Source: an uncultured Clostridia bacterium (GTDB lineage: Bacteria; Bacillota; Clostridia; Christensenellales; Borkfalkiaceae). Taken from it: 43,447 nucleotides of DNA. The notes beneath the pieces are model-generated. The model was not told where the DNA came from. It made no database searches and was given only the letters and a program-made list of their open reading frames with translations. The position numbers and the translations under genes were made by a program. Location: positions 1-43,447 of the forward strand of contig CANQBG010000011.1 of NCBI GenBank assembly GCA_947588985.1. The letters are read 5' to 3'. The first letter of the stretch is position 1, and each line of letters begins with the position of its first letter. Of the stretch, positions 31,306 to 39,087 are shown piece by piece.

Positions 31306-34300
31306 TCAGAAATCAAGGTCGGACTTCTCGACGATGGCGGTCTTGATGAGGCCCTCTTCGATCAGCTCTTCCTCGGTGCGGAAGGCGAACTCGGCGGCGT
31401 AATCCACCGTTTCGGGCTCCTCGAGCTTCACGGTGCCTACGCGCTCCATGAGGAGCTCGAGCAGACGGACCGTGCGCTTCAAGGCGACATTGCTCTTGAC
31501 CTTCATCATGAGCGGGGTGCGCTCATACATCTTGGTGTCGCCGGCGAACTTCTGGTGATAGACGGACTGCGGGAACTCCTCGGGATTGAGTGCGAGGAAT
31601 ACGCACAGCGTCTTGCCGCGGACGGCGATCTTGGCGATGGTATCGTTGTTGTAGGCGAAGCGATCGTTGGACCAGTTGACCTGCGACGTGATGTTGTTAT
31701 AGGAGAGGATCTCGTTCTTGAGGAGGCTATAGTATTCCTTGATGACCTCTTCGCTCTCGATGATCTTCGCCGTGAAGCTTCTCTTGAGGCGGGTCGTGAG
31801 CTCGGGCTCGGCGGCGGGCTCCTCAGCGGGCGCGACGGCCGCGGCGAGTTCCTCTTCGACAGGCGTTGCGGGAGCGGGCTCCTCAACGACTTCCTCGACA
31901 GGAGCGGGCTCTTCCGCTTCCTCAACGGGAGCAGGCTCCTCAACGACTTCTTCGACGGGAGCAGGTTCCTCGACGACTTCCTCTACGGGAGCGGGCTCTT
32001 CCGCTTCCTCAACGGGAGCAGGTTCCTCTGCGGGTTCCTCTACGGGAGCAGGCTCTTCCGCTTCCTCAACGGGAGCGGGTTCCTCTGCGGGAGTTTCTTC
32101 GACGGGCTCTTCGGCAGGGGTCTCCTCGACGGGTTCCTCTACGGGAGCTTCCTCGACGGGCTCCTCGGCAGGGGTCTCCTCAACGGGTTCCTCTACGGGA
32201 GCTTCTTCGACGGGCTCCTCGGCGGGAGTCTCTTCGACGGGCTCCTCGGCGGGAGTCTCTTCGACGGGTTCCTCGGCGGGAGTCTCTTCGACGGGTTCCT
32301 CAGCAGGGGTCTCCTCAACGGGCTCTTCGGCGGGAGCTTCTTCAACGGGTTCCTCATAGGCCGTCTCGACGACCTCGGCGGACTCGTTCTTCTGCTGTTC
32401 TTCCAAGAGCTCCTGCAGACGCTCATCGAGCATGCGGTTGATGCGTTCTTCGAGCGCGGCCTCTTCGGCGGCCTTGGCGGCAGCTTCCTCTTCGGCCTTC
32501 TTGGCGGCTTCCTCTTCGGCAAGGCGGGCGGCCTCTTCCTCAGCGAGGCGAGCGGCCTCCTCTTCGGCAAGGCGGGCAGCCTCTTCTTCCGCGAGACGGG
32601 CCTCTTCGGCGGCCTTGGCGGCAGCTTCCTCTTCGGCGGCCTTCTTCTGCTCCTCGAACAGGGCGGCTACGCGCTCCTCCACGAGGGCGTTGATGCGATC
32701 TTCCTCGGCCTTCTTCGCGGCTTCCTCTTCGGCAAGACGCGCGGCCTCTTCTGCGAGACGGGCCTCTTCGGCGGCCCTGGCGGCAGCTTCCTCTTCGGCA
32801 AGACGCGCTTCCTCGGCGGCCTTCGCGGCGGCTTCTTCCTCGGCAAGGCGGGCGGCCTCCTCTTCGGCGGCCTTGCGCTTCTCTTCTACGAGGCAAGCGA
32901 CCTTCTCGGCAAATGCGTTCTCTTCTTCGGCCTTCTTGGCGGCCTCTTCTTCCGCGAGACGAGCCTCTTCTTCGGCCATCGCGGCGGCTTCCTCTTCGGC
33001 AAGACGGGCCTCTTCTTCGGCCATCGCGGCGGCCTCGGCGTTCTTCGCCTCCTCGGCCTCCTTCAATTTCTCTTCGACGAGAGCGGCAACCTTGGCGGCA
33101 AAGGCTTCTTCCTCGGCGGCCTTCTTGGCGGCTTCCTCTTCGGCCTTTCTTGCAGCCTCTTCGGCGGCGGCGTTCTTCGCGGCCTCCTCTTCGGCGGCCT
33201 TCTTGGCGGCCTCTTCCTCGGCTTTCTTGGCAGCGATCTCGTTCTCGGCGGCCAGCTTGGCGTCTTCTTCCGCCTTGGCCTCCGCTTCCTTCGCGGCCTT
33301 CTCTTCCTCGGCGGCCTTGCGCTTCTCTTCCACGAGCCCGGCGACCTTCTCGGCCAGCTTCTCGTAATCCACAACTTCCTTCTCGTTTACGCGGAGCGCC
33401 GCAGCTTCCTCGGCGGCCTTCTTGGCGGCCTCCTCCTCGGCAAGCGCGCGCTTCTCTTCGACGAGGGCAGCCACCTTCTCGGCAAGGGCCTCGCAATCGA
33501 CCTCTGCCTCGCAGGTCCCGCACTGCTCGCCAAGGAGCTCCGCAACGCGCTGTGCGAGCGTCTCGTAGTCGAAGGGATCTTCCACGACGTCGGCCGTCTC
33601 CACGACTTCCGCGACGGGCTCTTCGGCGGCCTTGCATTCGGCGCACTTGGCCTGAAGCACTTCGACGACCTTTTCGGCAATGGCCTCGACGCCCACTTCG
33701 CTCACGGAGAGATCGAACTCGTGTTCGAGCGCCGTGGTGACGCTCTCAGCGACCAACTCGTAGTCGATGACGGGAAGCGTCTGGAGCACCTTCTCCGCAA
33801 TGACGTTTTCATCCGCAACGGGCACGCTGGCAGCGACCTTGTCTGCGATGTCGTCTGCATCGAGCGCCGGTACGGGCGGGATGGCGGCGACGACTTTGTC
33901 GGTGATGAGGTCGTAATCCACGGGCTGAATGAGCGCGGCTACCTTGTTGGAAATGAGCTCGTAGTCCACGGGCTGAACGGCCGCGGCCACCTTCTCGGCA
34001 AGTACCTCGTAGTCGAGGGTCTCCTTCTCTTCGGCGGCCGTCTCCACGACTTCCTCCTCTTTGGGCTCAAGCGCGGCGATCTTCTCTTCGAGCTGGAGCG
34101 TGACGGAGTTGATGACGCCGAGCAGTTCCTCGCGGAGCTGACCGATGGCCTCGCTCAACTGCTGGCCCTGACGGACGACTTCCTCGCTGTTGTCGCGCAG
34201 ACCCTGCTCGTTGAGTACGGCGAGCAGTTCTTCGCGGACGGAGCCGATGGTCTCGCTCGTCTTTTTGTCGCTCTTTTCGGCGGCCTCTGCGAGACGGTCC

Positions 34301-34746
34301 TCGATGTCCTCCACGCTCTCCACGACATGCTCCGCCTGCAACTCAAGGCGCTTTGCAAGGCGGGCTTCGAGAGCGGTAAGGTTGGCGGTGCCGACCATCT
34401 CCTGTCTAAGGGCGTTCACCGCTTCGGTAAGCCTTCTCTCAAGGTAGACGGCCATCTCGTCGGTGCGGCGATTGACGGCTTCGATGATGCCCTTGCGGAA
34501 GGTCTCGTTGTCGCTCTGCGTAGAATCATAGATTGCGCTGGTCTGCTGTGAGAGATACCTGATCTCGCGAACGACCGAATCCATGCCCTTCTGCACGCTG
34601 TCCACCACCGCCTGGTTCGCGGAGGACTGCTGGGCAGCCGTATACTGAAGTTCCTTCTTCATCGACTCCTTGAGTTCGTCGATCTTCCTCGTCATGCCGT
34701 TGTAGACACCTTGGAGGATGCGTTCTTCGTTGTTGTTGTTAGACAT
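31306..34746 (-). CDS. Giant Ala/Glu-rich coiled-coil repeat protein with conserved C-terminal domain
   Basis: A 1146-residue cytosolic protein (no signal or membrane helix). Residues 1-225 are helical and coiled-coil. From about 245 a repeat of the form (V/I)DYExLAEKVAALV recurs; two copies carry Cys pairs (KCAEC near 368, QCGTC near 408). About 430-800 is an uninterrupted charged coiled coil of AEEEAAKKAEEEA type, about 800-970 is a Pro/Glu spacer (EEPVEETPAEEP). The last 160 residues form a globular domain (SFTAKIIESEEVIKEYY ... VRGKTLCVFLALNPEEF) that I recognise as recurring in clostridial coiled-coil proteins without a known function. A scaffold or cytoskeletal role is plausible. Start after AGGTG; own promoter and terminator. 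Confidence 0.85.
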   Translation of the reverse strand: MSNNNNEERILQGVYNGMTRKIDELKESMKKELQYTAAQQSSANQAVVDSVQKGMDSVVREIRYLSQQTSAIYDSTQSDNETFRKGIIEAVNRRTDEMAVYLERRLTEAVNALRQEMVGTANLTALEARLAKRLELQAEHVVESVEDIEDRLAEAAEKSDKKTSETIGSVREELLAVLNEQGLRDNSEEVVRQGQQLSEAIGQLREELLGVINSVTLQLEEKIAALEPKEEEVVETAAEEKETLDYEVLAEKVAAAVQPVDYELISNKVAALIQPVDYDLITDKVVAAIPPVPALDADDIADKVAASVPVADENVIAEKVLQTLPVIDYELVAESVTTALEHEFDLSVSEVGVEAIAEKVVEVLQAKCAECKAAEEPVAEVVETADVVEDPFDYETLAQRVAELLGEQCGTCEAEVDCEALAEKVAALVEEKRALAEEEAAKKAAEEAAALRVNEKEVVDYEKLAEKVAGLVEEKRKAAEEEKAAKEAEAKAEEDAKLAAENEIAAKKAEEEAAKKAAEEEAAKNAAAEEAARKAEEEAAKKAAEEEAFAAKVAALVEEKLKEAEEAKNAEAAAMAEEEARLAEEEAAAMAEEEARLAEEEAAKKAEEENAFAEKVACLVEEKRKAAEEEAARLAEEEAAAKAAEEARLAEEEAAARAAEEARLAEEAARLAEEEAAKKAEEDRINALVEERVAALFEEQKKAAEEEAAAKAAEEARLAEEEAARLAEEEAARLAEEEAARLAEEEAAKKAEEEAAAKAAEEAALEERINRMLDERLQELLEEQQKNESAEVVETAYEEPVEEAPAEEPVEETPAEEPVEETPAEEPVEETPAEEPVEETPAEEPVEEAPVEEPVEETPAEEPVEEAPVEEPVEETPAEEPVEETPAEEPAPVEEAEEPAPVEEPAEEPAPVEEAEEPAPVEEVVEEPAPVEEVVEEPAPVEEAEEPAPVEEVVEEPAPATPVEEELAAAVAPAEEPAAEPELTTRLKRSFTAKIIESEEVIKEYYSLLKNEILSYNNITSQVNWSNDRFAYNNDTIAKIAVRGKTLCVFLALNPEEFPQSVYHQKFAGDTKMYERTPLMMKVKSNVALKRTVRLLELLMERVGTVKLEEPETVDYAAEFAFRTEEELIEEGLIKTAIVEKSDLDF
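31820..33480 (-). repeat. Low-complexity coding repeats (EEPVEETPA and AEEEAARLAEEEA arrays)
   Basis: The Pro/Glu array (about 31860-32350) and the Ala/Glu/Lys array (about 32440-33440) are nearly repetitive at DNA level. Length variation by slippage and assembly collapse are both possible here. Confidence 0.85.
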
Positions 34747-37273: not shown

Positions 37274-37520
37274 GGCATTCTCCTTTCTATGCTTTCTATA
37301 CGAACGCGCATCGCGTCTCTTGCGGATCGGACACCCATGCGGACGGGCGGTGGTCATCGGTTGAGCGCACGCGCCCGCGGCTGACGGTCTCCCGCGGCGC
37401 GGCGTGTGCGGTATCCCCTCCGAACAGACCGGCCGTCCGTGCCCCACCCCGCCAAAGAGCGCGGGATCGGGCGCGGGTATCCTTTGCAAATTACTCCATC
37501 CTACCGGAAAGACTGTTGTG

Positions 37521-37753
37521 CATGCCCTTACGGGCATGGAAACCCTTTTCGAGGGGCGCCTTTACCACTTGGCTACCGAGGGAGATCCCCCGGGTGGGAT
37601 TCGAACCCACGGATGAAGCGGCTTTCGCCGCACGGCTCTCTTTCACAAGTGTGAGCCACACCGGCAAGGGCGGTACGCGCTCCACGGGAAACCCTTGCGC
37701 GCCGCGGGAACACGGATCTCTCCGAATGCCCCGGCCTTTGCCCTTACACGGGC
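37521..37753 (-). ncRNA. Structured RNA with tRNA-like arms in permuted order
   Basis: A near-perfect promoter transcribes a region with no real ORF. Reading 5'-3' on the minus strand: hairpin GCGGC-GAAA-GCCGC (about 37632-37619); a perfect tRNA T-arm, GTGGG-TTCGAAT-CCCAC (37610-37594); CCGGGGG (37593-37587); four bases, ATCT; CCCTCGG (37582-37576), which can pair with CCGGGGG over 7 bp (one G-U); TA; a D-arm-like GCC-AAGTGGTAAA-GGC (37573-37558); CUCGAAA like a tRNA-Ser(CGA) anticodon loop, but on a poor stem; hairpin ATGCCC-GTAA-GGGCAT (37537-37522). So the 3' half of a tRNA precedes the 5' half. It could be a permuted tRNA, a tRNA mimic or a scrambled remnant. No CCA is encoded. The remaining 37274-37520 is GC-rich, with no gene seen. 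Confidence 0.5.
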
Positions 37754-37782
37754 ATTATATCACAGCCGCGGCACGTTGTCAA
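37754..37782 (-). promoter_or_regulatory. Very strong promoter of the structured RNA / SPFH leader
   Basis: TTGACA (37782-37777), 17-bp spacer, TATAAT (37759-37754) with TGA directly before it (extended -10). Both hexamers are perfect; such promoters typically drive stable RNAs. Confidence 0.92.

Positions 37783-37866: not shown

Positions 37867-39087
<1,221 letters not shown>

Follow-up and report, generated by a model that had tools for sequence, protein, structure and literature searches.

A conserved structured RNA with a circularly permuted tRNA-like domain upstream of SPFH/Band_7 genes

The partners of the ligases in bacterial RNA repair are poorly understood. The SPFH family has members that build rings, and Burroughs and Aravind reportedly described, in NAR in 2016, SPFH/Band-7 modules in RNA-repair operons together with a cognate, novel 'tRNA-like molecule'. 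Permuted arrangements of tRNA parts are known from two-piece tmRNA, in which the 3' tRNA part precedes the 5' part. Algae and an archaeon have circularly permuted tRNA genes, which are processed via a BHB motif to working tRNAs (PMC3978253). Two further papers place Y RNAs in rtcBA RNA-repair operons and describe YrlA as an RNA with a tRNA-like domain that binds a Ro60-like protein and can be encoded within rtc operons (PMC8394870, PMC7790460); YrlA-type Y RNAs are given there as 90-150 nt long with a Ro60-binding stem (PMC8394870). An SPFH gene is reported inside the rtc locus of Pseudomonas aeruginosa (PMC13086221).

The element described here lies in a 43,447-nt stretch of DNA from an uncultured Clostridia bacterium (the window), directly upstream of an SPFH/Band_7 gene, as is reported for the SPFH-associated tRNA-like RNAs of RtcB repair systems. 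It resembles YrlA (RF02553), whose consensus has a tRNA-like domain with permuted T-arm, closed acceptor and D-arm, a module that is present in the window's element. Unlike YrlA, the RNA is ~400-480 nt long, accompanies an SPFH gene instead of one for Ro60 (none found in the genomes searched), has extra conserved domains and scores far below the YrlA cut-off. With circularly permuted tRNA genes it shares a 3' half ahead of a 5' half, but it shows, at the level of sequence, no sign of a mature tRNA. Neither ARAGORN nor Rfam (Rfam 15, at gathering scores) finds a tRNA or tmRNA in the window, nor does Rfam find any other family there; the element differs from permuted tmRNA in this respect, the Rfam tmRNA models included, and in the presence of a D-stem. 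Because the gene context reportedly described by Burroughs and Aravind is like that here, the RNA would be filed with the already named, SPFH-linked tRNA-like RNAs; its permuted closed acceptor, its flanking domains and the loci lacking RtcB would be the features that we could not place in print. No title or abstract opening among the literature matches listed, whose coverage leaves out most subscription papers, names this RNA.

All sequence elements of the original prediction are found on the minus strand of the window at the predicted positions (Table 1). The near-perfect promoter was borne out, including a 17-nt spacer and a TG ahead of the -10 hexamer; shuffled sequence is expected to yield 0.1 promoter-like sites. 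The T-arm, CCGGGGG, four nucleotides, CCCTCGG, the dinucleotide TA separating this acceptor strand from the D-arm, and the D-arm itself follow the promoter on one strand in the order foreseen. This arrangement is beyond chance because SPFH genes of other genomes are preceded by the same order of parts. The leader fold also beats its own dinucleotide shuffles (z = -3.6; 0 of 200 shuffles as good). The predicted span was too short for the element, since the parts that are conserved in relatives reach from ~37747 to ~37352. The RNA would start at ~37747 and extend to just before the SPFH start codon. From 5' to 3', its layout is a P1-closed 5' domain, a pseudoknot or hairpin, the T-arm, the closed acceptor, the D-arm, an anticodon-like arm and a 3' domain; the tRNA elbow and acceptor are thus in circularly permuted order.

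Table 1. Positions of the RNA's features, its promoter and the SPFH gene in the window; A3 and A4 are alignments and R3 is a family model described in the text
Feature	Position	Strand	Support
Promoter TTGACA-17-TATAAT with extended -10 (TG)	37782-37754	-	12/12 consensus match
P1, 5' strand AAGGGC, adjoining the inferred transcript start	37740-37745	-	Strands chosen by eye
P2 hairpin GGCGCGC...GCGCGUACC	37672-37703	-	Diverged form of family 5' motif GGUGCRCGAGG..CC.AAGYGUAUGCC
P1, 3' strand GCCCUU	37666-37671	-	Strands chosen by eye
Possible H-type pseudoknot GUGU-GGCUC-ACAC-UUGUGAAAGA-GAGCC	37634-37661	-	Stems chosen by eye
Hairpin GCGGC-GAAA-GCCGC	37618-37631	-	No aligned counterpart in six relatives compared
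T-arm GTGGG-TTCGAAT-CCCAC	37610-37594	-	Sequence; T-stem pairs in A3, A4
Acceptor stem, closed: CCGGGGG, loop ATCT (AUCU), CCCTCGG (CCCUCGG)	37593-37587, 37586-37583, 37582-37576	-	Swap test, A3, A4
D-arm GCCAAGTGGTAAAGGC = GCC-AAGUGGUAAA-GGC	37573-37558	-	86.7% of A4 cells paired
Anticodon-like hairpin CCC...GGG, degenerate in window	37543-37556	-	74.0% of A4 cells paired
Hairpin AUGCCCGUAAGGGCAU, without T-run	37522-37537	-	Leader folding
3' domain with GGAUACCG at 37416-37409	37352-37425	-	GGATACC/GATACC counts; window R3 match weak (9.2 bits)
SPFH/Band_7 gene, 379 aa	36134-37273	-	Pfam PF01145, 96.5 bits

The SPFH protein contains no strongly hydrophobic segment (highest 19-residue hydropathy, 1.04), and its nearest solved relatives by sequence are stomatin, QmcA and HflK. 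Nine of the 103 genus genomes, that of the window among them, have its gene, and order-wide it is present in 10 of 396 at 1e-40. The element lies upstream of it in all eight genus genomes with enough sequence (the window, G084, G124, G028, G075, G004, G112 and G013); in the ninth, G132, the contig ends within the SPFH gene. An SPFH alignment scan of named genomes identified at least 526 relatives; the 80 best loci were taken from these, six of them from the genus SPFH genomes. A perfect T-arm occurs no more than 1500 nt upstream of SPFH in 75 of these best 80 of at least 526, and 66 of the 80 have the strict T-arm pattern. Among the 14 without the strict pattern, hardly any DNA ahead of the gene is available for two (L137 and L144), and nine (L080, L082, L107, L108, L113, L115, L116, L125 and L139) carry the 5' domain as detected by family model R2 at 30-60 bits. 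A hairpin of at least 6 bp immediately follows 50 of 88 perfect T-arms upstream of SPFH (best 80 of at least 526 loci), compared with 0 of 21 reverse-strand T-arms and 0 of 9 downstream T-arms from these loci, and with 1133 of 16,000 random positions. R2 covers the 5' domain but none of the tRNA-like part; in a search independent of SPFH it matched 3 of 391 class genomes, with SPFH directly downstream in all three. A DNA search of 61 genomes returned no full-length relative beyond the window, and no SPFH relative was found on viral contigs among 40 pattern-matching stretches.

The exception to this linkage is locus L006 (G051:C20), in which positions 1501-1564 hold a T-arm, an acceptor closed as a GCGCG hairpin and a D-arm, and give the top YrlA match, at 34.8 bits. 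In the ~3 kb examined there is no match to SPFH (none within ~1.5 kb), RtcB or WYL, and no ARAGORN tRNA. L006 would be either a lone copy or a different kind of permuted tRNA mimic, and given its presence the SPFH link may not be strict.

The acceptor strands CCCTCGG and CCGGGGG, whose covariation in relatives was the check proposed with the original prediction, do covary. In 68 sequences (the 66 loci from the best 80 of at least 526, the window and G084), the two strands form at least 6 continuous bp with their own partners in 49, as against 643 of 4556 swapped partners (14%) and 4.5% of the 3554 swaps in which the left strands differ at four or more of eight bases; the observed mean was reached by 0 of 2000 permutations. 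An acceptor helix of at least 4 bp is absent in 7 of the 68. In alignment A3, comprising the 31 of 66 loci that share one acceptor register, 88.8% of cells pair (T 100%, acceptor 94.6%, D 90.1%, anticodon-like 65.3%), and 69 are changed on both sides compared with 27 in shuffles; the count of further pair types in A3 is not above shuffles (137 of 500). Alignment A4, of the window and nine similar sequences, has 89.7% of cells paired (T 100%, acceptor 95.3%, D 86.7%, anticodon-like 74.0%) and 34 changed on both sides compared with 11.8 in shuffles. The 100% pairing of the T-stem is to be read with the selection of the loci by T-arm pattern, and all of the alignments A3 to A6 are chosen subsets of loci; A2 (the window and all of the 66 loci but L066 and L119, i.e., 64 loci) mixed registers and was excluded from the counts. 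The structures were named from the same sequences, so slid controls are biased toward them, and the shuffles and the swap test provide the stronger support.

The letters CUCGAAA, likened in the original prediction to the loop of tRNA-Ser(CGA), are present in the window, but they have a stem of just 3-4 bp and, judged by eye, are not kept in the two nearest relatives, G084 and G124; in these and in the window the anticodon-like arm has shrunk to CCC/GGG. A CUNNNAA-loop arm with a 5-bp stem follows the D-arm in G028, G075, L083, L135 and G351. Of the 66 loci (best 80 of at least 526), 29 have a hairpin with this loop between -70 and +110 relative to the T-arm, compared with 141 of 7920 random segments, and one match each in L066, L124 and L141 falls inside the acceptor hairpin itself. 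The loops vary among members, with CUGUCAA, CUGUUAA, CUGCUAA and CUUUCAA among others.

Outside the core, P1 pairs in seven of seven genus sequences with differing sequences, its strands having been chosen by eye. The P1-closed domain contains, upstream of the T-arm, the 5' motif GGUGCRCGAGG..CC.AAGYGUAUGCC. In alignment A6, which holds the 36 of 57 eligible loci that match the 5'-motif pattern, 324 of 324 cells pair, the pattern having fixed or restricted most outer-pair letters; one pair splits into 18 A-U and 18 G-C, its 5' side being free in the pattern and its 3' side limited to C or U. A looser count finds the motif in 38 of 66 loci (best 80 of at least 526). Just ahead of P1, a -10-like hexamer stands 3-9 nt before the GCAAG-like strand in 47 of 65 loci, compared with 435 of 3300 random segments. 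Between P1 and the T-arm, an H-type pseudoknot layout can be drawn by eye in seven of seven genus sequences, which differ in sequence; stem 2 of G084 has one mismatch (5 of 6 pairs), and full pairing between swapped strands is seen in 5 of 22 and 3 of 30 cases. In G112 and the window loop 1 has no base at all, a sterically tight arrangement. Many other family members show a 4-7-4 hairpin at this site instead.

In the 3' domain, GGATACC is found at the matching place in 54 of 66 loci and GATACC in 61 of 66 (best 80 of at least 526), compared with 357 and 768, respectively, of 6600 random 290-nt segments. The hairpin of this domain covaries in alignment A5 (42 of 52 eligible loci with GATACC), in which the helices are 82-88% paired and 119 cells are changed on both sides compared with 46 in shuffles.

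The window itself belongs to a diverged subgroup of the family. Model R1, built without the window, gives 25.8 bits over the full length of its element, a score that decides nothing alone because R1 reaches 23.5 and 39 bits on tandem ordinary tRNAs. The matches of R2 (5.1 bits) and R3 (37438-37380) are the best in the 551-nt leader and lie where expected, but over the whole window R3 has higher scores at two unrelated sites (12.9 and 12.8 bits). R3 is likewise weak on the near relatives G084 (9.4 bits) and G124 (12.3 bits), and R2 finds neither. Higher scores come from four other members of the same genus, G004, G112, G028 and G075: 37-56 bits for R2 and 31-52 bits for R3. Their leaders can be aligned with that of the window, which is assigned to the family by synteny, by the acceptor, T- and D-arms and through these bridging relatives. 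In 291 class genomes R1 gave six matches, which are two WYL-RNA-SPFH loci and four tandem tRNA arrays. R3 gave no match at 1e-5 in 299 phylum genomes, an empty result that is uninformative for such a search. Models of the permuted T-arm/D-arm core also match tandem ordinary tRNA genes at L168-L171, with up to 39 bits.

Among the 68 loci with enough DNA (from the best 80 of at least 526), RtcB lies downstream of SPFH on the same strand in 41, and there is no match to it at all in 25. RtcB is present in 17 of 103 genomes of the genus and in five of the nine with SPFH (G028, G075, G084, G124 and G132), being adjacent only in G132; in G000, G004 (96% complete), G013 and G112 it was not found. The RNA-SPFH pair seems able to stand without this ligase, because RtcB was found neither in the window's genome (83.5% complete) nor in G004. 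Upstream of the RNA are two WYL-type genes in 45 of 59 loci with 3.5 kb of upstream DNA (from the best 80 of at least 526); in L087 the first matches Pfam WYL, and the second matches only a PADLOC WYL model and, below cut-off, Pfam WCX. In the window, unlike these loci, the RNA-SPFH pair lies directly behind the EF-Tu gene (37867-39087, minus strand).

The RNA is conserved, covaries in its structure and is linked to the SPFH gene, and of the readings in the original prediction it is the tRNA mimic linked to this gene that the data support, by linkage in eight of eight testable genus genomes and by a covarying T-stem and acceptor hairpin. We consider it somewhat probable that the element forms the tRNA-like part of a conserved, structured RNA that serves as a dedicated partner of the SPFH protein; this reading is slightly weakened by the L006 element and by the R3 scores elsewhere in the window. 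The RtcB and WYL-type neighbors and the CUNNNAA hairpins also speak for it, and the loci lacking RtcB, the seven sequences lacking an acceptor helix, the incompletely paired anticodon-like helix and the divergence of the window's subgroup speak against it. Because of the analogy with YrlA, we favor a role as the RNA partner of SPFH and a scaffold in the handling of tRNA damage. The RNA would be to the SPFH protein what Y RNA is to Ro60, and its tRNA-shaped end, which would not be chargeable, may dock tRNA-handling enzymes such as RtcB or, alternatively, may act as a decoy for tRNA-cutting nucleases; damage and repair would then be handled on one scaffold. A large conserved RNA with a presumably unchargeable tRNA mimic would thereby accompany the gene of a scaffold-type protein, much as Y RNA accompanies Ro60. 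The models, the anatomy and the named loci, e.g., that of Oscillibacter valericigenes Sjm18-20 (L084), are provided for tests of function.

The main rival is that the RNA is a cis-acting leader, the 5' untranslated region controlling the SPFH (-RtcB) transcript, in which the tRNA-like end would sense a nuclease, cut or uncut tRNA, or RtcB or SPFH itself. The promoter directly ahead of P1 fits a leader, as do the lack of a terminator between the RNA and the next gene (0 of 61 loci with one search pattern, and none in the window) and the placing of GATACC, which in 47 of 61 loci stands 122-160 nt ahead of the SPFH start. Against a leader, the T-arm is found 744-979 nt upstream of SPFH in 10 of 66 loci, nine of which have an extra ORF in between, although the RNA would still lead that transcript. 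We regard the leader as a possible reading, though a doubtful one. A further proposal, which elaborates the RNA partner of SPFH and which we put forward only tentatively as an unlikely one, is that the permuted, unchargeable mimic, with its changing anticodon-like loops, is a sacrificial target of tRNA-cutting nucleases held by an SPFH ring with RtcB; cutting of the mimic would report an attack or spare cellular tRNAs.

A true YrlA-type Y RNA binding a Ro60/Rsr protein would share the order of T-arm, closed acceptor and D-arm, and YrlA is the top Rfam match of the window at relaxed thresholds. Its score there is 22.5 bits against a cut-off of 69, and sub-cut-off matches (E up to 1) occur in 94 of 101 relatives, with none above cut-off. 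At 27 of 29 control loci from the YrlA search ARAGORN finds ordinary tRNA genes; the other two are L010, an element beside an SPFH gene, and L006. The TROVE/Ro60 domain was found in 0 of 101 genomes, that of the window (83.5% complete) included, in a search in which, of 14 controls, only Deinobacterium chartae was positive. Membership in YrlA was rejected on the score, on the breadth of the matches and on the missing TROVE gene, and we consider this identity very unlikely.

That the element is a permuted but working tRNA gene, circularized and cut into a mature tRNA like those known from some algae and one archaeon, is even harder to uphold. The arm order, the 7-bp acceptor stem and the anticodon-like arms of several relatives speak for it. 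The reservations raised with the original prediction proved justified, however, since just a short loop (~2-9 nt across the family) separates the two acceptor strands and the anticodon arm is degenerate or not seen in many members; no 5-bp anticodon stem with a 7-nt loop was found in the window. Extra conserved domains flank the core on both sides, and a possible pseudoknot adjoins it. At the Rfam gathering threshold, 13 of the 80 loci yielded nothing on the element other than weak tRNA matches (~30 bits) to the 3' half in L121 and L083. The alternative of a scrambled pseudo-tRNA is contradicted by the conservation across relatives and by ARAGORN, which finds no tRNA at the site in any of 60 loci scanned (of the best 80 of at least 526), the result by which decay was to be judged. 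The element is neither a tRNA gene nor decayed sequence. Remains of two tandem tRNA genes, the T-arm of one and the D-arm of the next, can be virtually dismissed: ordinary tandem tRNAs do give the identical arm order and score with the YrlA and R1 models, but the acceptor strands here pair and covary with each other, the element is linked to SPFH, and the same 60 loci hold no tRNA at the site.

Several minor features were observed in and around these loci. An ORF family typified by L087:4152-4982, which has no Pfam or PADLOC match, lies just upstream of SPFH and has relatives in nine further loci; in 9 of these 10 loci, ~920-980 nt separate the RNA from the SPFH gene downstream of it. In the window, a 1146-aa ORF (31306-34746, minus strand) with long EEEAA/EEPVEE-type repeats perhaps encodes a coiled-coil structural protein. 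At several loci, GAUACCGC and GAUAACAGGC, from the 3' domain and the region of the anticodon arm, resemble what we take to be the peptidyl-transferase region of 23S rRNA, which may be chance. A second T-loop-like hairpin, GGGG-UUCAACU-CCCC, occurs ~22-42 nt before the T-arm in L073, L074, L077, L102, L105 and others, where it occupies roughly the place of the anticodon-like hairpin in other members.
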